A stretch of 62,615 bases of DNA, from the NCBI GenBank assembly GCA_018607135.1, contig JABBCA010000067.1:1-62615 (forward strand), written 5' to 3'. The first letter of the stretch is position 1. Each line of letters begins with the position of its first letter. The notes under the pieces are model-generated. The model was not told the origin of the DNA and ran no database searches. It saw only the letters and a program-made list of their open reading frames with translations. Source of the stretch: Opitutales bacterium (GTDB lineage Bacteria; Verrucomicrobiota; Verrucomicrobiia; Opitutales; Coraliomargaritaceae). A program made the translations under genes and the position numbers. This document shows positions 22,431 through 38,293 of the stretch, piece after piece.

Positions 22431-23123
22431 ATGAACACTCACAGTAAATCAACCAGCAACACGCTGGAAGTAGACCTACGTAGTCTGCTCCAGACCGTCA
22501 CCTCGGCAACCGCAGACTCACTCATTGCGCTAGCCGATGATACGGACATTAGCTACTTAATTATCCTCGAAACAGCTGCGAAGGATAAGCGAAAGTTCCT
22601 ACCCGCAGGTCCTGGGCTTGATTTTCGTTCACCAAAGGATGCGGCGGGTCAAACAATTGGTGGTATGCGCATGAGCGGCTTCGTCGATATGGCAAAAGCT
22701 AGAGCCAACCAGGCTGCCCAAACGCTGAATAAAAATATACCTACTCGCGAGACGAGTCCTTCACAAACTGAAAAAAAGCTAAAGCAACGTCTGGAATGGA
22801 CTGAAAAAGAAAATTATGAGTTAGAGAATCGAATTTCGAATGCAAAGAAACAAATCCTTACCCGTAACCAAGTCATTCAAGAGCTTAAGAAACAGGTGTC
22901 GGCATTGCAAAAAAGACTTGATGAGCATGAACACACCAGTGCTCCCTCAGATTCACAGATGTCCTCTAGGGATTCAGAATTAGAGGCCGCAGAGGAAGAA
23001 TTGATTACTCGGATGAATGAGTATATGGAGAAGGAAGCAGAACTCGAACAAAGAGAAGAAAACCTCTTCTATCGAGAACGTAAACTTCATGAAAAAGAGA
23101 ACAGCACGATACAGACTGCTTAG
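22431..23123 (+). CDS. Unknown coiled-coil protein heading the rhodopsin operon
   Basis: The 230-residue soluble protein has an N-terminal globular part (about 1-95), with LRSLLQTVTSATADSLIALA and a Gly/Met-rich GQTIGGMRMSGF, then a long charged coiled coil (about 105-170 and 185-225: EKKLKQRLEWTEKENYELEN, LEQREENLFYRERKLHEKE) separated by a Ser-rich break. No known family is recognised. It precedes two Roadblock-like genes and the rhodopsin with short gaps (17, overlap, 29 bp), so co-expression with the pump is likely. A scaffold or effector role is inference. Confidence 0.75.
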   Translation: MNTHSKSTSNTLEVDLRSLLQTVTSATADSLIALADDTDISYLIILETAAKDKRKFLPAGPGLDFRSPKDAAGQTIGGMRMSGFVDMAKARANQAAQTLNKNIPTRETSPSQTEKKLKQRLEWTEKENYELENRISNAKKQILTRNQVIQELKKQVSALQKRLDEHEHTSAPSDSQMSSRDSELEAAEEELITRMNEYMEKEAELEQREENLFYRERKLHEKENSTIQTA

Positions 23124-23140
23124 AATCAACTGAATTATAT

Positions 23141-23485
23141 ATGATGGAAGATAATACAAATAAACCAGAACCTAAATACATGCCTCCAGGTATGTATGGA
23201 TATGCGGTTACGGATAATTCCGGTTCAATTGTAGAAAAAAATGGAACCGTATCTAACTCACTCGACCAGTATGTGGCCTACTTCAACCAATTGGGCAGCT
23301 TGCTGGGAGACAGTTTAGGTTTCACCAGCTATGAGGAGATGATATTGCTGGGCAAAAGCCGACATGCACTCTGCATGGAAATTGATGATTTACACTATGC
23401 TGCAATCTACAAAGCAAAAGCAGATCGACGGGAAATGAGTCAATTCATCCAACAAAAGGGAGAAGAAAACGATGTCCTTGCGTAA
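23141..23485 (+). CDS. Roadblock/LC7-like protein, short type, rhodopsin operon
   Basis: The 114-residue protein shows a Roadblock-like pattern: strand-turn-strand GYAVTDNSGSIVEKNG (about 20-35), a long helix (SLDQYVAYFNQLGSLLGDSLG), then strands around LCMEIDDLHYAAIYKA and a C-terminal helix. Roadblock/LC7 proteins form dimers that regulate small GTPases (MglB) or act as scaffolds. The assignment rests on pattern only. It aligns over its length with the protein at 34831 (for example SLLGDSLGFTSYEE against DMIGEPFGMDSIEE). Its end overlaps the next gene by 14 bp, implying coupled translation. Confidence 0.65.
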   Translation: MMEDNTNKPEPKYMPPGMYGYAVTDNSGSIVEKNGTVSNSLDQYVAYFNQLGSLLGDSLGFTSYEEMILLGKSRHALCMEIDDLHYAAIYKAKADRREMSQFIQQKGEENDVLA

Positions 23486-24023
23486 TTACTTTCAACCCAC
23501 TCTCGATTTACCAGGCGTAACTGGAATCTTTTGCTTAAATGCCGAAGGCCAGCTAATCGAAAATTTCCTACCCTCTGCTTACACGGACGCTATTTTTAAG
23601 GAGCTAGGAACTCGCTGCCTAACTCTACTGAATGCGGTTGATATGAGTTATACTCAGACCAACGAATATCTAGTTTGCTTTGAAGGAGACAGCCTTTTTC
23701 TACACAAAGCAGAAGGTTGCATTATTGGAGTGCTGTGTTCTGGAAACCCGATGTTAGCGGGCATTCGAGTGTCCATCAACTTACTGCTCAAAACGGCTCA
23801 AGATGCGATCGCACAAGCACCACTTAAAGAAATTGCCATCAAAACTGTGCCAAATCAACCACAGGCAAAGCCTTTAATGGAAAGCAATGATGATGATATA
23901 ATCATCGCACCCAAAAAAGTAAAAGACAGCGATCTTCAAGAAGCTGAAGAGCCTAAACGAAAGGGCCTTTTCGGATTCAAGAAAGATAAAAAGTCAAAAC
24001 CCTCAAACGACATCTGGGGTTAA
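23472..24023 (+). CDS. Roadblock/LC7-like protein, long type with basic tail, rhodopsin operon
   Basis: The 183-residue protein has a Roadblock-like core at about 8-115: PGVTGIFCLNAEGQLIENFLP, a helix with FKELGTRCLTLLNAVD, then strands YLVCFEGDSLFLHKAEGCIIGVLC and a helix ending in INLLLKTAQDAI. A linker and a Lys-rich tail (KRKGLFGFKKDKKSKPS) follow, suited to contact acidic lipid or protein surfaces. The paralogue at 35148 has the same layout. It overlaps the short partner upstream and lies 29 bp before the rhodopsin gene. Heterodimer formation with the short partner is inference. Confidence 0.65.
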   Translation: MSLRNYFQPTLDLPGVTGIFCLNAEGQLIENFLPSAYTDAIFKELGTRCLTLLNAVDMSYTQTNEYLVCFEGDSLFLHKAEGCIIGVLCSGNPMLAGIRVSINLLLKTAQDAIAQAPLKEIAIKTVPNQPQAKPLMESNDDDIIIAPKKVKDSDLQEAEEPKRKGLFGFKKDKKSKPSNDIWG

Positions 24024-24052: not shown

Positions 24053-24778
24053 ATGCTTCAAACAGAATCACTCCTCCAATTTTTAGTTAGCACCACTTTT
24101 AACTTGGCCTTTATGTCAATGGCGGGCGGCGCAGTTTTCTTCCTTGCGATGAAAAACAGCGTCATACCTCGCTATCGCAGCACCATGGTCGTATCGTCGG
24201 TCATTTTGTTCATCGCTGCGATGAACTATTATTACATGAAGGATTGGTATGCCGCCTCCGTTCAAGGCGGCCTCGCTTCTTTCCCAACGAGTTTTCGCTA
24301 CATTGACTGGGTCCTCACGACTCCGCTCATGCTAGTTAAATTCCCTCTCCTTCTCGGACTAGGTCAAAAAGGACAGTCGTTCATGAATAAGCTGATCGTG
24401 CTCGACCTCATCATGATCATATTTGGGTTCTTTGGGGAAATCCTCATTGATCAGCCAACCTTACACTATGCGTTCTTTGCTGTTGGTGTGCTCTCATGGG
24501 TGGGCATTCTTTACCTGCTATTATCGGCTACCAGTAATCTACCAGAGCGCTTTTCGCCAACTGTGCGCAGCTGCGTCAAAGTGATGGTCGGGTTCGTATT
24601 GATTGGCTGGTCCATCTATCCACTAGGTTACATCTTGCCTAGCTTTGGCTTCCCGCAAGATGTCCGTGAACTTGTTTACAATGTCGGTGATATCATCAAC
24701 AAAGTAGGTCTAGCAATCGTGGTATACATCGCCGCCGCTTCGCTCACAAAAGAAGAAACTGAATTCGGAAGCGAATAA
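24053..24778 (+). CDS. ESR-like microbial rhodopsin, putative outward proton pump (DTK motif)
   Basis: The 241-residue, seven-helix retinal protein keeps the Schiff-base lysine K217 in YNVGDIINKVG with counterion D213. Helix C reads RYIDWVLTTPLMLVKFPLLL, giving acceptor D85, T89 and K96 at the usual donor carboxylate. This D-T-K set is known from Exiguobacterium sibiricum rhodopsin (ESR), a proton pump. M93 at the spectral-tuning site suggests green absorption. The acceptor-partner His of proteorhodopsin and ESR is N58 here (MNYYYMKD). F142 sits where antenna-binding xanthorhodopsins have Gly. It is last in a four-gene operon, followed by a strong terminator and the retinal-synthesis genes. 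Confidence 0.96.
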   Translation: MLQTESLLQFLVSTTFNLAFMSMAGGAVFFLAMKNSVIPRYRSTMVVSSVILFIAAMNYYYMKDWYAASVQGGLASFPTSFRYIDWVLTTPLMLVKFPLLLGLGQKGQSFMNKLIVLDLIMIIFGFFGEILIDQPTLHYAFFAVGVLSWVGILYLLLSATSNLPERFSPTVRSCVKVMVGFVLIGWSIYPLGYILPSFGFPQDVRELVYNVGDIINKVGLAIVVYIAAASLTKEETEFGSE

Positions 24779-24800
24779 CAAAAGCATACTTTCATCCATA

Positions 24801-24839
24801 AACGGCTCTCTTTCCAAAAAGAAGGAGAGCCGTTTTTAT
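24801..24839 (+). terminator. Terminator of the rhodopsin operon
   Basis: Stem AACGGCTCTC pairs with GAGAGCCGTT, followed by TTTATT, 22 bp beyond the rhodopsin stop. Confidence 0.9.
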
Positions 24840-24974: not shown

Positions 24975-26081
24975 ATGCCAACCTATAATCACATCGCCTG
25001 CGTCGGCCTAGGATTAGCGAATGCTTGCTTGATCAATGAACTTAGGTCGATGGGGTTTACAGGTCACATTAGCGTTTTAGAAAAAGCCACTGCTCCAGAT
25101 ACCCACAAGCGCTGGTGCACCTGGAAACCATTGCCTTCAATGTTGAGGGATATCCACGCCAACGAATGGCAGGCTTGGACAATCAAGAAACGAACAGAAC
25201 AGCACTCATTGGCATCTGTCCGCCACGCTTATACAGAGATAAAAGCGAGTGACTTCTGGGAGGTTCAACTGGCACGTCTAAACAGCGACCCCCATACCTC
25301 GATCCATTATAGCACCGACATAGCAAACTATAAAAAGATTAAGGATTTACCTTTGCCGCAATCCGCACCGCTCGATCTTATTATCGACTCTCGCTCCATC
25401 CAGATGGCTAATAGCCAATATCAACAGCAATTTGTGGGATGGATGATTGAGACTCGGCATGCGTCTTTCGATCCTGAATCAGCGCAGCTGATGCATTTCA
25501 CTGAGGAAACGGATCGTATCGCCTTTCTCTATTGTCTGCCTTACTCTGAAACTCGAGCGCTTGTCGAATACACGACCTTTCAATTTGGTGCGTTTTCTAG
25601 AGAGCAACACACCTTCGCATTAAAAACCGCCCTAAACGAACGCTATCGACTCACCGACGACCAATATACCCTTTTATCCAAAGAAGCTGCCAGCCTTCCC
25701 ATGGGTAGCTACCCACATCCGAAGCCTCTTTCAGGGTATTGGCCCATCGGCATACGCGGCGGAGCAATCCGTGGCTCGAGCGGATACGGGCTGCTCAGCA
25801 TCTGCGAACAAGCCAAACGCTACGCAGACTCAATCCTCAAAGGTATGGCTCGTCCTAAGGCACCACCCGTAAATCATCATTTGACCCAGTATCTGGATCG
25901 AATATTCATCCGCGCGATCCGAAAGAATCCACAACTGGGTCAAGATTGTTTTCTCGCTTGTGCACGCAAATTAAATAGCCAGCAGTTTGTGGAACTTATG
26001 CGCGGCGAACTGTCCTTTGCCTCAGCACTCAAAGTAATCGCCTCGATGCCAACTTATACTTTTTTGAAAGCGCTTTTCTGA
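24975..26081 (+). CDS. crtY: Lycopene beta-cyclase (CrtY type)
   Basis: It cyclises both ends of lycopene to give beta-carotene at the membrane. The 368-residue protein begins with a dinucleotide-binding CVGLGLANACLINEL and SVLEKA, has LIIDSRS and YQQQFVGWMIET (the CrtY QxFxG-type block), and FLYCLPYSETRALVEYTTF. It is a divergent family member: the usual LMDFR is LMHFTEE. It is separated from blh by 8 bp and clearly forms a crtY-blh operon. Placement between rhodopsin and blh makes the role firm. Confidence 0.9.
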   Translation: MPTYNHIACVGLGLANACLINELRSMGFTGHISVLEKATAPDTHKRWCTWKPLPSMLRDIHANEWQAWTIKKRTEQHSLASVRHAYTEIKASDFWEVQLARLNSDPHTSIHYSTDIANYKKIKDLPLPQSAPLDLIIDSRSIQMANSQYQQQFVGWMIETRHASFDPESAQLMHFTEETDRIAFLYCLPYSETRALVEYTTFQFGAFSREQHTFALKTALNERYRLTDDQYTLLSKEAASLPMGSYPHPKPLSGYWPIGIRGGAIRGSSGYGLLSICEQAKRYADSILKGMARPKAPPVNHHLTQYLDRIFIRAIRKNPQLGQDCFLACARKLNSQQFVELMRGELSFASALKVIASMPTYTFLKALF

Positions 26082-26089
26082 CTCAAAAC

Positions 26090-27049
26090 GTGATACAAAC
26101 AGAACCATATTCTGCAGCCCACAAAGCACCCATTTTTTGTTTGCTCGCCTTAGGCGCAGTGGGCTTTGCGGTGCCTCCAAGTCGTCTCGTTGAGTATGCA
26201 GGCTTGCTTTGGTTACTGAGCATACTCTGCATCGGCATGCCACACGGCGCAGCCGACTGGTTTATTTTTAAGAAGTTATTTCAACCACAGAAAATAGGTC
26301 CTAAACTGGGATTTATAAGTGCTTATTGCGTGCTTGCTGGACTATATCTTTGGCTATGGAAACTCTCTCCTGAAAGCGCTGTCATTCTATTTCTTCTCTT
26401 GACGGCATGGCATTGGGGAAGCGGTGATTCACTCGGTCTTCGACCCAACCCACTTTGCTGGATTACGCACAGTCTGGCGCGTGGATCCATCGTCGTTTTT
26501 GCACCGTTGGCCTTTCATCTGGACGAAACTCGCTCCTTTCTAGAAAAGTTCCCAGGTATTCATGACGGTGACTTTGGTTATATAAATAATCAAAATGTAT
26601 TTTTCATTTGGATACTATTCTCAGCAATCACGTGCTTACTCATGTGGGGCTACGCGATCAGAAAAAAAATATCCGTAATTGGTATGGGTCGTTTAAGTAT
26701 CGCAGAACTTTTCCTCATTCTAATCATCTATTATTACTTCCCACCATTACTCTCGGTCGCACTCTATTTCCTCAGCATTCATGGACTTCGCCACATGCTC
26801 TATTTGCTGAAGGAGCTCCCTAGCAAACAACCGAATCTGTCAGGCATTTTCAGGCTGCACATCGCCTCTTTGGGATGCACCCTACCGGCGGTTGCCGTGA
26901 TGATAGTTTTTTGGCAACTTTACCCAGAAAAATTTCTTACAATTGAGAGTAGCACAGCTCAGTATTTAGTCCTTATCGCAGGCCTCACTCTGCCCCACGC
27001 AATCCTGATTGTCTACTGGGATATTTTAAAATTAGGGCGAAGTAATTGA
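26090..27049 (+). CDS. blh: Beta-carotene 15,15'-dioxygenase (Brp/Blh family)
   Basis: It cleaves beta-carotene into two retinals, the rhodopsin chromophore. The 319-residue polytopic membrane protein keeps the iron-binding histidine motifs of the family: IGMPHGAADWFIF, TAWHWGSGDSLG, SIHGLRHMLYLL and LTLPHAILIVYW. The start is GTG, 8 bp after crtY. Its last 18 bp overlap the 3' end of the convergent crtB. Confidence 0.93.
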   Translation: MIQTEPYSAAHKAPIFCLLALGAVGFAVPPSRLVEYAGLLWLLSILCIGMPHGAADWFIFKKLFQPQKIGPKLGFISAYCVLAGLYLWLWKLSPESAVILFLLLTAWHWGSGDSLGLRPNPLCWITHSLARGSIVVFAPLAFHLDETRSFLEKFPGIHDGDFGYINNQNVFFIWILFSAITCLLMWGYAIRKKISVIGMGRLSIAELFLILIIYYYFPPLLSVALYFLSIHGLRHMLYLLKELPSKQPNLSGIFRLHIASLGCTLPAVAVMIVFWQLYPEKFLTIESSTAQYLVLIAGLTLPHAILIVYWDILKLGRSN

Positions 27050-27937
27050 GACTCCAGGCAGTCCAACTAAATGTCTGTGCAAAGAGGCGTCATGTATTTG
27101 CGCGCTTGAAACTGGTGTCAACAATGAGGTCATCGCGCAGCTTACGAGTTCCAAGCGCCTAGGTTTCCTAGGCTGAGGAAATTGATGATGAGACTGGGGA
27201 TGCATACAGTGGCCCACTTCTCTGTAAAAAGCTCCTGCAATTCGAATTGACACTCTAGAACGATAGGGAATTGTGCGGTATCCAAATGAAGCGCTTTGGT
27301 AGTAACGATCAGCAAGCGCTAACAAACCCTTCACCGCAGTTTTCAGCTGTGTAGCCACTGCCGTATTGGCTTCAAGTATTTGCTGCGGAGTATTTACTTC
27401 AGGCAACCATGCGGCGGGAATATAAATACGCTCACGCTCCGCGTCTTCAAGCACGTCTCGACTGATATTACTCAGTTGCATGGCAATGCCCAAATCAATC
27501 GCATGTGCTTTTGCTCGCTCTGAGCGCACATGTAGCAATGGACACAGCATCAAACCAATTACACCAGCGACACCATAACAAAAACGAATCAATGCGCCTT
27601 CATTCTCAATTCGCCGAGGTCCGATGTCATCCAATATGGCCTGTATCAGATACAATAAAGCGTCCTTAGGCACCCCCCAATCGCTCACTAATTTCAAGGC
27701 TTGCTCGACTTCAATGTGCTCTGGCGACTCACTTTTCAGCTGCTGCGAGATCGACAATAAATACTCCCTCGCCTGCGTCGACTCTCCCTCGTCCGCCCAG
27801 TCATCCGCGATTCGACAAAATCGATACAAATCCGCAATCGCTTGCGCTTGGTCTTTAGGCAATAAACGCAAAGGCCAGTAGAAGCTGCGACTTTTACGGC
27901 TTACATACTCAATGGACGATTGATTTGTTTGAATCAT
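27032..27937 (-). CDS. crtB: Phytoene synthase
   Basis: It condenses two GGPP molecules to phytoene. The 301-residue protein has both Asp-rich sites, YRFCRIADDWADE and NISRDVLEDAERERIYIP, and the N-terminal SRSFYWPLRLLP. Squalene/hopanoid synthases of the same superfamily are possible on motif alone, but the 4-bp ATGA overlap with crtI settles the pathway. It is the last gene of crtE-crtI-crtB. Confidence 0.94.
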   Translation of the reverse strand: MIQTNQSSIEYVSRKSRSFYWPLRLLPKDQAQAIADLYRFCRIADDWADEGESTQAREYLLSISQQLKSESPEHIEVEQALKLVSDWGVPKDALLYLIQAILDDIGPRRIENEGALIRFCYGVAGVIGLMLCPLLHVRSERAKAHAIDLGIAMQLSNISRDVLEDAERERIYIPAAWLPEVNTPQQILEANTAVATQLKTAVKGLLALADRYYQSASFGYRTIPYRSRVSIRIAGAFYREVGHCMHPQSHHQFPQPRKPRRLELVSCAMTSLLTPVSSAQIHDASLHRHLVGLPGVSITSP

Positions 27938-29412
27938 GTGCCGCGCACAGCGATCAGATCGCCAACAATTTTTGCAGAATTCAAGACCCCAGGCATCCCT
28001 GCGCCTGGATGTGTTCCCGCCCCAGTAAAATATAAATTCTTAACGCTGCTACAGAGATTATGATATCGAAACCATGCCGATTGTGTCAAATCTGGGCTAA
28101 TCGAAAACCCAGCTCCGTATGAACTGTGGAAACGGTCCCTAAAATGAATAGGTGTCGTATAAAAGCTATCGCCGATTTCAGAACTCAACCCTGGCATAAA
28201 ACGCTGCTCTAAAGTGCGGATTGTGTTTGCCTCTAATTGAGCGCCCATCTGCCCCCAGTCCGTGTTCGCATCGATCTTCAAATTAGGCACTGGCACCAAG
28301 GCGTAGTAGGATTCACCGCGACTTCCAGCAATAGGCTGAGTCGCTGCGGGTCGGTGTAGATAAATATTCGGTTCATCACTGATTTGTCCACCTCGAGTAA
28401 TCGCCTCCAACGACCCCTCGTAATCGGATTGTAAAACAATCGTATGGTGGGCCACCGACTCATAAGTGCAGCGTGTATTAAAAAATAAGACAAACAGGCC
28501 AAACGAGAAACGAGCATGTTTATTTCGCCAACGCCACAGCTTCCCCACCGTCTTCGGCAGCAGGTTATCATAAGCCCAAGCTGGGTCCATATTGCTAGCA
28601 AAGAGCTCCCCTTCGATCCGCTCACCACTGTCTGTCCGCACTGCGGTGATACGATCTCGATTCAATTCTAATGCATCCACAGAAGCATTCATAACAAATT
28701 CGACTCCGTGCCTTTCCAATAAGCTGACTAGCGCTTCAACTAAAGCGCCGGTTCCACCTTTTGCATACCAAACACCCCACTTCTGCTCCAAGGTATGGAT
28801 CAATCCATAGATAGCTGGCGTCTCAAGTGGACTCCCCCCAACCAATAAAGAGGGCGTCGCAAAGACTTGTCGAAGCTTCTCACTTTTGAAGTAACTCGAA
28901 ACCATTCCGTATAAACTACGATACGCACGCGTCTTTACAATAAAGGGCAGCTCTCGCAACATAGATCCTACTCGATGAAACGGCGCAGCACCCAACTGCT
29001 CATACCCTCGCTCAAATAATTTAGCGGAGTAGGCACTAAATTGACGGTAGTGATCCAACTCCCCTGGAGCCACACGCTCGATCTCCGCATAGAGTGCATC
29101 GCCACTACCATAGTTGAAGTAATCTCCATCTGGAAAACTGTAGCGATACCAGGGTGTCACTGGTAAGAACTCTACATGGTCTTCGATACGTTCGCCAAAA
29201 AGCTCAAACAACTCACCAAATAAATAGGGTGCAGTCACAACCGTAGGGCCAGCGTCATAAGTGAAACCAGATTTTTCGAAGGTATGTGCACGCCCACCCA
29301 ACACGGCATTACGCTCGACGATCGTGGTCGCGTGGCCCTGCGCTCGCAATCTAGCGGCAATTGCTAAGCCACCGAGGCCGCCTCCAAGCACAACTGCTCG
29401 TTGACAGTTCAT
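27934..29412 (-). CDS. crtI: Phytoene desaturase
   Basis: It is an FAD-dependent four-step desaturase that converts phytoene to lycopene. The 492-residue protein has an N-terminal dinucleotide-binding VVLGGGLGGLAIAARL followed by VERNAVLGGRAHTFEKSGFT and DAGPTVV, and the C-terminal CrtI signature region LYFTGAGTHPGAGMPGVLNS. Both ends overlap neighbours by 4 bp (ATGA), so crtE, crtI and crtB are translationally coupled. Confidence 0.96.
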   Translation of the reverse strand: MNCQRAVVLGGGLGGLAIAARLRAQGHATTIVERNAVLGGRAHTFEKSGFTYDAGPTVVTAPYLFGELFELFGERIEDHVEFLPVTPWYRYSFPDGDYFNYGSGDALYAEIERVAPGELDHYRQFSAYSAKLFERGYEQLGAAPFHRVGSMLRELPFIVKTRAYRSLYGMVSSYFKSEKLRQVFATPSLLVGGSPLETPAIYGLIHTLEQKWGVWYAKGGTGALVEALVSLLERHGVEFVMNASVDALELNRDRITAVRTDSGERIEGELFASNMDPAWAYDNLLPKTVGKLWRWRNKHARFSFGLFVLFFNTRCTYESVAHHTIVLQSDYEGSLEAITRGGQISDEPNIYLHRPAATQPIAGSRGESYYALVPVPNLKIDANTDWGQMGAQLEANTIRTLEQRFMPGLSSEIGDSFYTTPIHFRDRFHSSYGAGFSISPDLTQSAWFRYHNLCSSVKNLYFTGAGTHPGAGMPGVLNSAKIVGDLIAVRGT

Positions 29413-30320
29413 ACGCGCTCTGACTTCGCTTGAGCGCGTAGCAAGGCATCAATCTGCTGCTGCATGCCGCGTTCAACTTCATTAAAAATCATCCGAGTAG
29501 CCGCCGGTAAAACCGACTTCATCGTATCGATTCGCATGAAGCACTCCCGCATCCAAGCGACCATAGTGACTGCTTCGCTACCGACAAAGTCTCTTTCCGC
29601 GACTCGGGCAAATGTCCATTCAGCATTGCGATTATCGGAGGGCTTTTCACGTCCGCGCTTACAGCCCAAACAGTCAAATAAGTCATCCATAATTTGATAC
29701 GCTAAACCAAACTCAACTCCTATCGAAACAGCCAACTTACACTCGCGCTCACGGTCCGCCAAAATTAACGCCATCTCCACAGGCAGTGCGAACAACATTC
29801 CCGTTTTTAACCGTGACCATTCCATGCACGCATCCAAGGTGCACGACATCCCTGACTCACAATCCAGTTGAGCCGATTGACCACGACTCGCATTTAAAAT
29901 GACCTGCGAGAGCAGCTGTATTAAACGCACCTTGCTCCTAGACGCTATTTCCAGATTGGCTAAGCAATCATAAGCCTCGGCGATGAGCACATCCCCAAAT
30001 AGCAGTGCTTGGGAAGCACCTAAAACTGCATATCCACTCGGACGCCCGCGACGCTCGAAATCATGGTCCATAATATCGTCATGGATCAAGCTCGCATTGT
30101 GGATCAATTCGACTGCGAGGGCTGCTGATAGAGCCGTTTCCGCCTCTACTTCAAACGCTTCACATAGCTCAATTAATAAACTCCCCCTGAAGTAACTTCC
30201 ACCAAGAATGAGAGTTTCCGCGTTCCACCGATCCAATTGGCGGACAGTAATCAATCGACTCATCTCGGCTTCAAGAGTCGAGGCATGCCGGCTAAGGGTG
30301 TTGGGGCTAAGTTGTGACAT
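29409..30320 (-). CDS. crtE: Geranylgeranyl diphosphate synthase (trans-prenyltransferase)
   Basis: It makes the C20 precursor for phytoene. The product has the first Asp-rich motif in HNASLIHDDIMDHD and the second in YQIMDDLFDCLG, plus the conserved lead GGSYFRGSLLIELCEAF. Chain length cannot be read confidently, but context calls for GGPP. I placed the start at ATG 30320 (MSQLSPNTL); the frame extends upstream to 30389 without family-like sequence. Confidence 0.93.
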   Translation of the reverse strand: MSQLSPNTLSRHASTLEAEMSRLITVRQLDRWNAETLILGGSYFRGSLLIELCEAFEVEAETALSAALAVELIHNASLIHDDIMDHDFERRGRPSGYAVLGASQALLFGDVLIAEAYDCLANLEIASRSKVRLIQLLSQVILNASRGQSAQLDCESGMSCTLDACMEWSRLKTGMLFALPVEMALILADRERECKLAVSIGVEFGLAYQIMDDLFDCLGCKRGREKPSDNRNAEWTFARVAERDFVGSEAVTMVAWMRECFMRIDTMKSVLPAATRMIFNEVERGMQQQIDALLRAQAKSERV

Positions 30321-30694
30321 AAACTGGATTTTGTATTCACTGATAATTGTGCGATATTTACAAATGTAATCGCCCTGCAATGATAACATTAATTAAATAA
30401 TGAGCCATCTAAAATCAGATGATTGAGGGCGCACTTTTATGTAAAATTACCGTATAAAATGCTTAAAGTTTTAGACTGGCATCTTTAATTAATCGAGAGA
30501 ACTTCGTAGACATCTTAGGGATTCATTCAATGAACCGCCTTTGTTACGATGTAGCGTCGAATCGAAAACGAATCTTCCCGCGCGATTCAACTACTGAATT
30601 TGTCAACCGCTGAAGATCGTTCTCTAGGAGTTGTCGATTTAACCAACACGCTAGCGACCGCTCGGCCTCGAAAGGTTTTATCGGCTACAAAGCA
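30321..30694. other. Intergenic region between crtE and marR
   Basis: It holds the crtE promoter side (AT-rich near 30345-30480) and then 200 bp of unremarkable sequence downstream of marR. I see no clear operator like those at 31162 and no gene. Confidence 0.4.
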
Positions 30695-34830: not shown

Positions 34831-35139
34831 ATGTTTGAAAATATAGATGTAGCATCATTGGAAGAAGAAGGCTTTATCGGGGCGATCACATGTAATGCAA
34901 ACGGCGCTATACTAGATGCAACCAGTGATGACTTAGAGGTCTTTGGAAGTATTCTCGGATATATCACTCAAGTGGCAGACATGATTGGGGAGCCCTTCGG
35001 CATGGACTCCATCGAGGAAGTGCACTTCGAGAGCGCTAACACGAAAGCGGCCTGCATACCACAAGAAGATGAGACCATTGGCGTGCTTTGTAATAGCAGA
35101 GCTAACATAGAAAACATCCTTAACGAAATAATTAACTAA
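34831..35139 (+). CDS. Roadblock/LC7-like protein, short type, amt operon
   Basis: The 102-residue acidic protein has strand-turn-strand GFIGAITCNANGAILDAT, a helix with LEVFGSILGYITQVADMIGEPFG, then strands and a C-terminal helix (ENILNEIIN). It is the evident paralogue of the gene at 23141 with the same order relative to its long-type partner. It starts a four-gene operon ending in the ammonium transporter. No Shine-Dalgarno-like sequence precedes the ATG. Confidence 0.65.
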   Translation: MFENIDVASLEEEGFIGAITCNANGAILDATSDDLEVFGSILGYITQVADMIGEPFGMDSIEEVHFESANTKAACIPQEDETIGVLCNSRANIENILNEIIN

Positions 35140-35147
35140 AGGACGCT

Positions 35148-35660
35148 ATGATAGAAAAAATTGTTAAAAACGTATTGGAACTTCATGGTGTTGATGGCGC
35201 ATGCATCTTAGACAAGAAAGGTGTTTTACTGCATAATGCGCTCCCAGATTTCTTCCTAGATGATTTCTTGGACGATCTCTCTAGGCGGGTTAAAGCGCTG
35301 TATGAAGCAGTTGATGAAAACTACATGCCGTGTGATGATTACTTGCTAAAATTTCCACAAAAATACATACAATTACGCCGTAGCCGTAATGTTTATTTGT
35401 TAGTTGCGGTCGACCCCAGCGTCAACCTGGTATCTCTACGCATGGTGACTAACTTAGTGCTAAAGCACATCACGCCAAAGGTTCTAAGTGAAATGCGAAA
35501 GCAGCTTGCGAGTGCTGAAACGCTCAATGCAGCGCCACCAGTCGAGAAAGTTCCGCAAGAAGCGGCTCCGCCGACATCCACGCCCGAATCAGCTCCCACA
35601 CGAGGCAACAAAATAGCACGACCTCGTCCCACTAGATCCTTTAGGGGGACCAGATACTAG
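35148..35660 (+). CDS. Roadblock/LC7-like protein, long type with basic tail, amt operon
   Basis: The 170-residue protein has a Roadblock-like core at about 1-115 (LHGVDGACILDKKGVLLHNALP, LSRRVKALYEAVDENYM, VYLLVAVDPSVNLVSLRMVTNLVLK) and a Pro/Ala-rich linker ending in a basic tail (RGNKIARPRPTRSFRGTRY). It aligns along its core with the 23472 protein, including GVTG/GVDG, FLP/ALP and NLLLK/NLVLK. It lies 8 bp after the short partner. Confidence 0.65.
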   Translation: MIEKIVKNVLELHGVDGACILDKKGVLLHNALPDFFLDDFLDDLSRRVKALYEAVDENYMPCDDYLLKFPQKYIQLRRSRNVYLLVAVDPSVNLVSLRMVTNLVLKHITPKVLSEMRKQLASAETLNAAPPVEKVPQEAAPPTSTPESAPTRGNKIARPRPTRSFRGTRY

Positions 35661-35672
35661 TTTACTAGCGCC

Positions 35673-36893
35673 ATGCACTTATTGACTTCAGATCGGTTGA
35701 CCAAAAGTCAACTACTACTATTACTGCGCGAATTGGGCTATGCACCACGCTTTCATTCCAGCGTGAGCGAGATGGAAGATGCTTTAGAGGGCAGTGATTC
35801 AAATACCTTGATCTTGATCGACCTTAGCACCCAGATCTCTACCAGTGAATTAGACACCCTTGTAAAATATAAAAAGCAGTATCGAATCATCGGTTTTGAA
35901 CGACTTGATACCAACAGCACCTCCAATTTACTGATTCCCGCGCACACCTTCGAAACGGCCATCATAATTCCAAGTAATGGTGAACGAGCAAAACTACGTT
36001 TGAAAAATGCATTAAAACTTGGGGGGCAGAAGCAGAAAAGCACTCGTGCCCCGTTCGGTGTGCGACATCGCCCCATGTCAACCCTAAGTAAGCTCGCAAA
36101 GACTGCTCTTGATAAGACCGAAGCAATCAGCTCGCGCTACATCATTACCGAGAGCCCAGCATCTTATACACTTCTCAAAACATTAAAAGCCGCCTCGACT
36201 CAAGAAGGTGCCTTTATTCTCGAAGCGAAGGAAGAAGTTGAGTTTGAACTCATCGCACGTGAGTTCAACTATTTGTCAAATTCCGATAAAGCAGCCCTAT
36301 TTATTATACAGCCAGAAAACCTAAGGATTGACTCTTTAGAAAAGTTAGAACGAGCCGCCACTCGGGATGGCATTCCTATTAATTGCTACGTTGGTCGAAC
36401 TGATGAGCTTGATGAAGTGGCCGCGAGTGAGTTGGAATTATTCTGTAATTATTTAAGCAATTTAAGGAATCCGCATGCTCGCTTGATAGTGGGTCACGAG
36501 ATCGGAACTGAAGACCTGTATAGAGAAGGAGTCGCGACACATATGAGTTCACTGTTTAGCAAAGCGAAGCGTATTCAAATACCTAGCTTGAGGGATCGGC
36601 CCAGCGACATTCCAACCATTTGCCAGCTGACGCTCAGCCATCTGCGCTCCGCCCATCCGTTTCTATTTGTCCATCGGGTCTCTCAAGAGGCGGAAACTTA
36701 CTTATCAGAACAGCGCAACCACTACTCTTACACTAAATTGGTGCGTATCCTTCGCAACGCGATCGCATTGTCTAAACGAGAGACTTTAAGCGTAGAAGAC
36801 ATTAAAAACTACGGCGAGAGCGACATGACAACGCAGCACTTACTCGAAACGATGGCCGACGAAAGCTACTTTCCGCAATCTGCAAATTTTTAA
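35673..36893 (+). CDS. Degenerate NtrC-like protein (pseudo-receiver plus dead AAA+ domain)
   Basis: The 406-residue protein follows the layout of sigma-54 activators with lost key residues. A receiver-like N-terminus (about 1-120) has D50 in LILIDLS. At 158 ITESPASYTLLKTLKAAST resembles the start of the NtrC AAA+ domain. The Walker A position reads EAKEEVEFE (184-192), with no GxxGxGK; no GAFTGA loop is seen. The C-terminal signatures PSLRDRPSDIP (304-314) and LVRILRNAIALSKRE remain. There is no DNA-binding helix-turn-helix. It probably acts through protein contacts rather than as an ATPase. It lies 12 bp after the Roadblock pair and 23 bp before amt. Confidence 0.7.
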   Translation: MHLLTSDRLTKSQLLLLLRELGYAPRFHSSVSEMEDALEGSDSNTLILIDLSTQISTSELDTLVKYKKQYRIIGFERLDTNSTSNLLIPAHTFETAIIIPSNGERAKLRLKNALKLGGQKQKSTRAPFGVRHRPMSTLSKLAKTALDKTEAISSRYIITESPASYTLLKTLKAASTQEGAFILEAKEEVEFELIAREFNYLSNSDKAALFIIQPENLRIDSLEKLERAATRDGIPINCYVGRTDELDEVAASELELFCNYLSNLRNPHARLIVGHEIGTEDLYREGVATHMSSLFSKAKRIQIPSLRDRPSDIPTICQLTLSHLRSAHPFLFVHRVSQEAETYLSEQRNHYSYTKLVRILRNAIALSKRETLSVEDIKNYGESDMTTQHLLETMADESYFPQSANF

Positions 36894-36916
36894 CTCACAC
36901 CAACCAAAGCAAGTAT

Positions 36917-38293
36917 ATGAAAATTAAAAGTAGCCTCACTCTAGCTTTAGTATCGCTATTGCCAAGTATAGCATCTGCTCAGGAAGTAGCCGAAGAAAGC
37001 GCTAGCTACCTAAGCCAGAATACCGCCGATATTCTTTGGTATCTAATTGCAGCAATTTTAGTCTTTTTCATGCAAGCGGGCTTCGCACTCGTCGAAAGTG
37101 GTTTAACACGGGCAAAGAACGCATGTAATATCATGATGAAGAATATGCTGGATTTCAGTTTCGGTGTGATTGCCTTTGCGGTATTGGGTTATTCAATCAT
37201 GTATGGTGATTCTATTGGAGGCTTTCTGGGATGGAGTAGCGGATATCTCTTCATGGGAGACGCATTAATGGTCGGAGAGGATCTCGCAGCCACGAATTTG
37301 GTTGCTGCCGAGTGGCTTTTCCAAGTGGTATTTGCCGCTACCGCGGCCACGATTGCGTCGGGTGCAATGGCCGAGCGCACCAAGTTTATAGCTTACATTG
37401 TATACTCAATTGCGATTACTTGCTTAGTCTATCCTATTGTTGGTCATTGGATATGGGCTGGCGGCTGGCTGGCTGAATTGGGTATGCGCGATTACGCAGG
37501 ATCAACGGTCGTCCACTCTGTGGGCGCTTGGGCAGGCTTAGCGGGCGCCCTTGTTTTAGGAGCTCGCAAAGGAAAGTATGATAAAGAAGGTCATGCACTC
37601 CCGATCCCAGGCCACAATATGCCGATGGCAACGTTGGGATGTTTTATTCTCATTGTAGGTTGGTTCGGCTTTAACGCCGGCTCAACATTGGCAGCTGTTG
37701 ATGACATGGCCTACATTGCCATGGTCACGTTGATCGCTGCATCTACTGGTTGCATTGGTGCCAGTATTACAACTTGGGCAAAGTTTGGTAAACCCGACCT
37801 TTCGATGACATTAAATGGTGCGCTTGCTGGTTTAGTGAGTATCACCGCCTGTTGCGGCAGTGTCTCGATTCTAGGTGCTATGGCGATTGGCCTCATTGGA
37901 GGTATCTTAGTTGTCTTTTCAGTCTTATTCTTCGAACAAAAAATTAAAGTGGATGATCCCGTTGGAGCAATCAGCGTTCACGGTATTTGTGGCGTTTGGG
38001 GCACACTTGCAGTTGGACTGTTTGGCAGCACTGCGATTGATGCAGGCCTCGCCTCAGATGGACTCATCTATGGGGGGACTGCGCAATTTGGAATTCAAGC
38101 AATTGGAGTCATTGCAGTGTTCGCATTCGTGTTTCCAAGCTCATTTTTGATTTTTAAAGTGATACAAAAAACCGTCGGCCTTCGTGTTAGCGAGGAGGAG
38201 GAACTTGAAGGTTTAGACATCTCAGAACATGGCAACGAGGCATATGCAGACTTTCAAGTCTACGCAGATCTGCCAGAAGAAGATTTAGCATAA
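36917..38293 (+). CDS. amt: Ammonium transporter (Amt family)
   Basis: The 458-residue inner-membrane channel conducts ammonium. It has a cleavable signal (about 1-21, ending SIASAQE), eleven predicted helices, and the conserved pore histidines in STVVHSVGAWAGLAGALVLG and ISVHGICGVWGTLAVGLFG. A cytosolic tail (EEEELEGLDISEHGNEAYADF) is typical for PII contact, yet no glnK accompanies it. Instead it ends an operon with two Roadblock-like proteins and a dead NtrC-like protein. Confidence 0.95.
   Translation: MKIKSSLTLALVSLLPSIASAQEVAEESASYLSQNTADILWYLIAAILVFFMQAGFALVESGLTRAKNACNIMMKNMLDFSFGVIAFAVLGYSIMYGDSIGGFLGWSSGYLFMGDALMVGEDLAATNLVAAEWLFQVVFAATAATIASGAMAERTKFIAYIVYSIAITCLVYPIVGHWIWAGGWLAELGMRDYAGSTVVHSVGAWAGLAGALVLGARKGKYDKEGHALPIPGHNMPMATLGCFILIVGWFGFNAGSTLAAVDDMAYIAMVTLIAASTGCIGASITTWAKFGKPDLSMTLNGALAGLVSITACCGSVSILGAMAIGLIGGILVVFSVLFFEQKIKVDDPVGAISVHGICGVWGTLAVGLFGSTAIDAGLASDGLIYGGTAQFGIQAIGVIAVFAFVFPSSFLIFKVIQKTVGLRVSEEEELEGLDISEHGNEAYADFQVYADLPEEDLA

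Follow-up and report, generated by a model that had tools for sequence, protein, structure and literature searches.

An ESR-like DTK rhodopsin with Asn in place of the counterion-partner His, encoded beside a pair of Roadblock-like genes

The rhodopsin gene and its neighbors

We analyzed a 62,615-nucleotide stretch of DNA from an Opitutales bacterium (assembly GCA_018607135.1, contig JABBCA010000067.1), referred to here as the window; features lie on the plus strand unless noted. A complete, stop-free open reading frame at 24053-24778 encodes a 241-amino-acid type 1 microbial rhodopsin (PF01036, 1.9e-40, 139 bits against a cut-off of 24.6), the only PF01036 match in the host genome as searched. 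Read from the codons, it carries R82, D85, T89, K96, D213, and the retinal lysine K217, together with N58 and G151. Its D, T, and K stand at the bacteriorhodopsin (BR) positions 85, 89, and 96, which is the DTK motif of ESR, and K96 (codon AAA, 24338-24340) is the predicted Lys proton donor.

Among solved structures, ESR is the closest in sequence (4hyj, 9.8e-51). Helix B aligns without gaps, AAIHYYFMKD in ESR against AAMNYYYMKD in the window, and N58 (codon AAC, 24224-24226) falls on ESR H57 and on H75 of green proteorhodopsin (GPR); Asn thus occupies the place of the proteorhodopsin-type helix-B His. A sequence-only reading of this gene had assigned the DTK set and put N58 at the His position. 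Both assignments are borne out by the codons and by gap-free alignment with ESR and proteorhodopsin, and the ESR helix-B string it gave was correct. The AlphaFold2 model, built like all our models without retinal, has a mean pLDDT of 91 and retrieves ESR first in a fold search (Z 30.1, rmsd 1.4 over 214 residues, 42% identity). Gloeobacter rhodopsin (6nwd) ties ESR by fold (Z 30.1, 28% identity), and rows 1 to 20 of the list span no more than 2 Z units. Judged by its sequence, the protein is a DTK, ESR-like rhodopsin with Asn replacing the counterion-partner His. The same reading had also singled out G151, at the place of BR Y147. This position is variable (G, V, W, L, or A within the clade described below; G in 23 of 168 aligned rows), which rules out G151 as a meaningful change.

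Three genes precede the rhodopsin gene. The first (22431-23123) encodes a coiled-coil protein with weak coiled-coil Pfam matches only; a homologue with 48% identity stands at the same place in the closest relative (L032, genome G041), and no tblastn match was found in the other clade loci. A gene downstream of the G094 rhodopsin (L035, 10222-10923), with a sub-threshold receiver match and a coiled-coil end, looks by eye like this coiled-coil gene. Protein B (23141-23485, 114 amino acids) is Roadblock/LC7-like and belongs to a family found with hidden Markov models (HMMs) upstream of the relatives' rhodopsins. Protein A (23472-24023, 183 amino acids) has a predicted Roadblock/LC7 domain at about residues 1 to 117, followed by a disordered tail that ends in IWG (24012-24020). 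The A gene overlaps the B gene by 14 nt and ends 29 nt before the rhodopsin gene. A strong intrinsic-terminator-like hairpin (24800-24835, 15-pair stem, T-rich tail) follows the rhodopsin gene; the region holds 9 terminator-like sites against 3.0 expected, and promoter-like sites there are no commoner than in shuffles. The coiled-coil, B, A, and rhodopsin genes, with rhodopsin last, are a probable short operon.

Carotenoid and retinal genes adjoin it. They comprise a crtY-type lycopene cyclase (24975-26081; PF05834 1.7e-25, TIGR01790 below cut-off), a Brp/Blh beta-carotene 15,15'-dioxygenase that makes retinal (26090-27049; PF15461 4.5e-47, TIGR03753 over cut-off), and, on the minus strand, a crtB-type phytoene synthase (27032-27937; PF00494 1.6e-50, NCBIfam equivalogs below cut-off), a crtI phytoene desaturase family gene (27934-29412; TIGR02734 over cut-off), and a crtE-type polyprenyl synthetase (29409-30389; PF00348 1.9e-46). 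With these genes nearby, retinal can probably be made. In a Myxococcales MAG, an RPE65-family carotenoid oxygenase gene (L036, 8753-10249) overlaps the rhodopsin gene, and the locus has no Blh match. In G041, a second rhodopsin gene (L032, 8628-9335), xanthorhodopsin-like and His-type, lies about 1.8 kb downstream of the Asn-type gene and adjoins crt genes. A His-type DTK rhodopsin gene adjoins Blh and CrtI matches in L038 (G684, labelled Roseibacillus), whose AlaS is as close to that of the window as is the AlaS of a same-family genome. The window AlaS is 67% identical to the G684 protein and 42% to its counterpart in Litorivicinus (G686), and members of the window's order recur, with identical contigs and coordinates, in the phylum of G684; this favors Verrucomicrobiota over a gammaproteobacterial host.

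The Asn clade and the acceptor triad

Relatives were picked by similarity, the genome contig scan took the best 80 of 590 matches, and residues were read only in matches recovered as loci; with a sample chosen in this way, the Asn:His ratios given here are not natural frequencies. The alignment omits L024 and identical copies, and one residue comparison set omits L006, L017, L020, L024, L027, L028, and L030. Among the 168 aligned relatives, 147 rows combine His with DTE. Asn occurs with DTK in six rows (the window, L003, L004, L005, L172, and L037) and can be read with DTE in two (L036 and L133). The latter, a Glu-donor rhodopsin, has Asn as an isolated replacement; its close siblings retain His. 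The DTK rhodopsin of G094 (L035, 8417-9114) is split by a frameshift, for which sequencing error and decay are both possible; its upstream half (L030) reads VNYYFM, which is Asn. L006 and L191 are frameshifted as well, and their residue-58 letters, from out-of-frame stretches, were excluded from the counts; residue 58 of L006 was taken from L030, and its N terminus was masked in the tree. Among the sequences compared, His with DTK was found in ESR, in L042 from Exiguobacterium, and in L038. E17R is likewise a DTK rhodopsin that retains His, according to the portion of its report available to us (PMC4871484). A viral contig scan with the rhodopsin alignment returned one His-type relative.

In a maximum-likelihood tree of 47 rows with columns 58 and 96 removed and two of the selected rows missing, the window rhodopsin groups with L003, L004, L005, L006, L172, and L036 (support 92/80), and all of them have Asn. 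These seven come from Verrucomicrobiota-like and Myxococcota genomes, with Asn in 7/7, one of them by way of the upstream half of the frameshifted gene. The root of this tree is unsure, the outgroup not forming one side of any branch, and the tree carries a long-branch warning. Asn does not depend on a Lys donor, since L036, the sister of L172, combines it with Glu. The remaining Asn and DTK row, L037, groups with ESR and Exiguobacterium (support 100/98). A single origin for all eight Asn rows of the ESR-like group was rejected (AU test, p 0.011), a soft value given that the groups were chosen after the tree was seen. Placing all eleven ESR-like rows in one clade was not rejected (AU p 0.36), though this clade is absent from the free tree. 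On this tree, residue 58 must have switched between Asn and His three times and the donor between Glu and Lys twice, counts that do not show whether Asn was gained or His regained. All eleven ESR-like rows have T90 and P98, and 10 of the 11 have D118; other His-type pumps mostly have V90, with S, A, or T at 118. T90 and D118 also occur together in DTG, DTS, and DTT rows, and BR too has Thr and Asp at the corresponding positions, so the pair is not private to the ESR-like group.

In the sequence-only reading, N58 was an isolated departure, and an Asn common in the clade was named as evidence against that view. Alignment and phylogeny show Asn fixed within the clade, which rules out N58 as a unique oddity.

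The acceptor of proteorhodopsin is joined across protomers in an Asp-His-Trp triad of which GPR W34 is the third member. In the 8cnk sequence, a Trp precedes the His by 41 residues (75 - 41 = 34), and the corresponding place is residue 17 by alignment, which in the window is Asn (N17, codon at 24101-24103). Within the ESR-like group, Trp stands there in 3/3 His-type rows and in 0/8 Asn-type rows, which read N, N, L, V, V, P, T, and L (G094 being read from the upstream half of its frameshifted gene). Outside this group His occurs with Phe or Ser at the residue-17 place, and Trp is thus not needed for His; the joint absence of His and Trp is limited to the ESR-like group and represents at most two independent losses. 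On these residues, the acceptor triad of the window rhodopsin is dismantled, with His replaced by Asn and Trp absent.

Published His mutants bear on what this could mean. In the part of the ESR study available, the H57M mutation moves the acceptor pKa from <2 to 6.3 (PMC10743670). For proteorhodopsin, the accessible sections of another study say that His raises the acceptor pKa by about 0.8 to 2.2 and that H75N still cycles, with a faster photocycle (PMC6656774). In the same sections, monomerization of Gloeobacter rhodopsin raises the acceptor pKa, an effect abolished by H87M (pKa 3.72), and it is proposed that a pump not reliant on its oligomer could dispense with His (PMC6656774). Because the shifts in ESR and proteorhodopsin are opposite, we predict no direction of pKa shift for the window rhodopsin. 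The Asn clade, having neither His nor Trp, is a natural candidate for an oligomer-independent pump.

The sequence-only reading took the locus for a DTK pump whose acceptor pKa is shifted by one substitution, His to Asn. The shift in ESR H57M supports such an effect, as far as the available part of that paper goes. The change is, however, clade-wide and accompanied by the absence of Trp and by other clade-fixed residues; N58H by itself may thus fail to recreate a proteorhodopsin-like site, and published pumps disagree on which way the pKa moves (PMC6656774). We regard this explanation as on the unlikely side. What stands of the earlier reading is the DTK, ESR-like rhodopsin with Asn; the lone oddity does not, and it had overlooked the missing helix-A Trp and the Roadblock pair.

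Roadblock-like pairs beside rhodopsin and beside an ammonium transporter

Protein A of the window scores 12.9 bits against Robl_LC7, where the gathering score is 23. Its homologue in L199 passes (24.2 against 23), and four other copies fall below the gathering score with Roadblock as their only match. A profile search with A reaches Roadblock chains (E 0.0042). The AlphaFold2 model of residues 1-117 has the topology H-E-E-H-E-E-E-H, with a disordered tail beyond it, and matches Roadblock chains with a Foldseek E of 6.7e-6 and Z up to 14.3 (a Roadblock homodimer chain). By its predicted fold, protein A is a Roadblock/LC7 domain protein. Protein B matches less well in these searches: the window copy has no Pfam match even at E 10, the L032 and L035 copies have no Roadblock match, and a B profile has no match in the PDB up to E 5. 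The L036 copy matches Robl_LC7 at 3.8e-4 (20.6 bits, below the gathering score of 23), and we infer that B is Roadblock-like.

Using HMMs, we found A and B directly upstream of the rhodopsin gene in 6/6 clade loci with upstream sequence, across two phyla. The HMMs were built from the window, L032 (G041), L035 (G094), and L036 (the Myxococcales MAG), which match by construction. The independent matches are L033 (G120; A 2.3e-15, B 4.2e-10) and L199 (G897; A 2.3e-23, B 1.2e-7). In a single-sequence search, the L033 proteins were closer to the ammonium transporter-type copies described below than to rhodopsin-type copies, and those of L199 were missed, being found by HMM only. Identity of the pair between the two phyla is 23-31%. 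For the seventh member, G007, only 76 nt of the contig precede the gene, and no A was found elsewhere in this genome, which is 72% complete.

The scan covered flanks of 1.5 kb for most loci and up to 8 kb for genome-contig loci. Within the stretch scanned, A and B were found at 0/134 His-type loci with at least 1 kb upstream (of 148 loci; 70 have at least 3 kb). Farther out there is one exception, G041, where the pair lies about 2.6 kb upstream of the second, His-type rhodopsin gene, with the Asn-type gene between. L037, which has Asn and DTK and belongs to the ESR clade, shows that Asn can occur without the Roadblock pair: neither A nor B lies within 8 kb of it. Across 103 genomes of the phylum of the Myxococcota relative, A occurs in one, that relative itself, which has an Asn-type rhodopsin; G897 was found apart from this search. 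No Ras-like GTPase, kinase, or transducer was recognized among the neighbors scanned. With no small GTPase there, this is not a plain MglA-MglB pair.

A second cluster in the window, at 34831-38293, contains a Roadblock-like pair, a receiver-like gene, and an ammonium transporter gene (amt), in an order largely kept in relatives without the Asn-type rhodopsin. It begins with a paralogue of B (34831-35139; B HMM 7.6e-9, Robl_LC7 0.0059 and 16.8 bits, below cut-off) and a paralogue of A with the tail FRGTRY (35148-35660; A HMM 1.8e-26, Robl_LC7 0.0066, below cut-off). A 406-amino-acid degenerate receiver/sigma-54-activator-like protein follows (35673-36893). It has no Pfam match over cut-off of its own; its homologue beside the pair in L218 matches Sigma54_activ_2 over cut-off and Response_reg below it. 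A homology of this gene with L035 9129-10202, suspected by eye, was dropped when no similarity was found. The last gene encodes the ammonium transporter Amt (36917-38293; PF00909 1.1e-127), a transporter class with known sensing roles.

Protein A occurs in 10 of 91 relatives' genomes. Eight A-bearing genomes have no Asn-type rhodopsin, and in seven of them Amt lies beside the pair (in G080, beside A alone); the eighth, G089, has none there. G094 and G120 each also hold an Amt-type A, which Amt adjoins in G120; none was found in the 14 kb read in G094. G120 has a third, weak A match (C5, 1.2e-7, 98 residues). In G001, which belongs to the genus of the window, decay is suggested by an in-frame TAG close to the start of the Amt-linked A gene (L212, 8133-8648) and by a receiver-like gene of which just a 66-nt remnant still matches. 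The Amt-type A of the window has no match in 72,556 plasmids at E 1e-3.

The A proteins differ in their tails. The six rhodopsin-linked copies all terminate in IWG, and 9/9 A proteins of the other branch, plus two extra copies not in the tree, end in [FY]RGxxY. In the A tree, rhodopsin-type and non-rhodopsin A proteins are split by a branch with support 100/99, in a tree with very long branches, those of L033 and L199 above all. A tail that varies with the neighboring transporter resembles, we infer, a docking peptide. The C-D and E-F loops of rhodopsins are cytoplasmic by standard topology. Four residues that are fixed in the rhodopsin clade (7/7) and are not the prevailing ones elsewhere lie in these regions: G104, G107, and F110 in the C-D loop region and P164 in the E-F loop. 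A Roadblock-like pair beside a small rhodopsin family at every readable locus suggests that partner proteins control or position the light pump.

The rhodopsin could also be an ordinary ESR-like pump, with a neutral Asn and with the Roadblock pair an unrelated neighbor kept by shared ancestry or co-transfer. All pump residues and the retinal genes are present, L133 has an isolated Asn beside a Glu donor while its siblings keep His, and L037 has Asn without the pair; proteorhodopsin H75N, in the sections of that study noted above, still cycles and does so faster (PMC6656774). Against this explanation, A and B are kept in all six readable loci across two phyla at so low an identity, with IWG fixed, and Trp is absent wherever His is absent in the ESR-like group. 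We consider an ordinary pump with an unrelated neighbor decidedly unlikely.

A proposed pump with a cytosolic partner, and its known relatives

The explanation that we favor, with slightly better than even confidence, is an ESR-like outward proton pump whose triad is dismantled and which is regulated or positioned by the Roadblock pair. The pump part draws on the intact R82, D85, T89, K96, D213, and K217, on closeness in sequence and fold to ESR, which pumps, on the adjoining retinal cluster, and on the RPE65-family gene that overlaps the rhodopsin gene in the Myxococcales MAG. By these residues and by kinship, D85 would accept the proton and K96 would reprotonate the Schiff base, giving light-driven outward pumping, and the acceptor would work without the Asp-His-Trp triad, His being replaced by Asn and Trp absent. 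The likeliest arrangement of A and B is a Roadblock heterodimer in the cytosol. The IWG tail or the A/B domain may dock on the cytoplasmic loops of the rhodopsin, and the docked pair, to go by gene order and tails, could regulate, position, or report on the pump. Gene neighborhood does not prove contact between A/B and the rhodopsin, and the Asn clade is small, mostly from metagenome or unassigned assemblies, with a frameshifted member in G094.

A light sensor that uses the Roadblock pair to signal, possibly with a Ras-like GTPase encoded elsewhere in the genome as target, and in which pumping is secondary or absent, would suit the altered acceptor triad, the paralogous pair next to a receiver/sigma-54-activator-like protein and Amt, and the regulation of small GTPases in bacterial polarity by Roadblock proteins like MglB (in the available parts of PMC9481161 and other reports), but the full DTK pump set is kept and no GTPase, kinase, or transducer lies among the neighbors scanned, and we judge it quite improbable.

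The regulated or positioned pump may be one branch of something wider. As a possible but somewhat doubtful extension, we propose Roadblock-associated rhodopsins: a pump lineage coupled to a tandem Roadblock heterodimer through IWG, within a wider transporter-regulating system with partner-specific tails, in which rewiring of the triad would hand control from the oligomer interface to a cytosolic partner. Such a system, with IWG for rhodopsin and [FY]RGxxY for ammonium transporters, may exist and was not found described in the literature searched. Light-driven pumps of bacteria are generally regarded as working on their own. If the proposal is true, one kind of adaptor directly controls a rhodopsin and an ammonium transporter from the cytosol. 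In any case, the Asn clade supplies a set of natural variants, with Lys or Glu as donor, that live without the Asp-His-Trp triad, and the Amt-linked Roadblock operon is of interest in its own right.

The literature search, which had most subscription papers outside it, gave, among the matches listed, no title on a Roadblock pair with an ammonium transporter, and for DTK-motif rhodopsins it returned only work on mirror proteorhodopsins. The matches on rhodopsin and roadblock, among those listed, were by title tools, expression, or optogenetics reviews.

Of the known pumps, ESR is the nearest, sharing the DTK set, the T90-D118 pair, P98, and the identity and fold given above; its lysine serves as proton donor, according to the part of the source available (PMC8387761). 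It differs in having H57 and a Trp at the residue-17 place, where the window has Asn and Asn, and a longer loop before helix E, and the Exiguobacterium locus (L042), unlike the window, has no Roadblock pair within 8-kb flanks. GPR and Gloeobacter rhodopsin share the acceptor Asp, R82, the D213-type counterion, and the retinal Lys with the window rhodopsin, but have a Glu donor and a His-Asp pair where it has Lys and Asn; GPR also has the cross-protomer Trp that the window rhodopsin lacks.

Mirror proteorhodopsins (SpaR, DTG/DTS) are likewise without the helix-B His, with Ala in two plasmid examples that also share T90 and D118 with the window. They have no Lys donor and lie far apart from it in the tree, and the window motif is DTK rather than DTG, DTS, or DTT. 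In xanthorhodopsin-type antenna pumps, a helix-E Gly opens the carotenoid fenestration. F142 at this place rules out an antenna rhodopsin; the column has Gly in 105 of 168 rows, including L016, L018, and L162, and Trp in L019, L021, and L029.

MglB and other Roadblock/LC7 proteins share the predicted fold of A. Compared with the MglB type, A has a long disordered tail whose end varies with the neighboring transporter, and no MglA-like gene lies alongside. The flotillin-associated rhodopsins are a clade defined by a constant scaffold-type gene neighbor, in the part of their description available (PMC10308929). No flotillin was found among the neighbors scanned here; they have flotillin and DTT, DTL, or DNI, while the window clade has the Roadblock pair and the window motif is DTK. 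What the two have in common is a rhodopsin clade with a constant neighbor gene.
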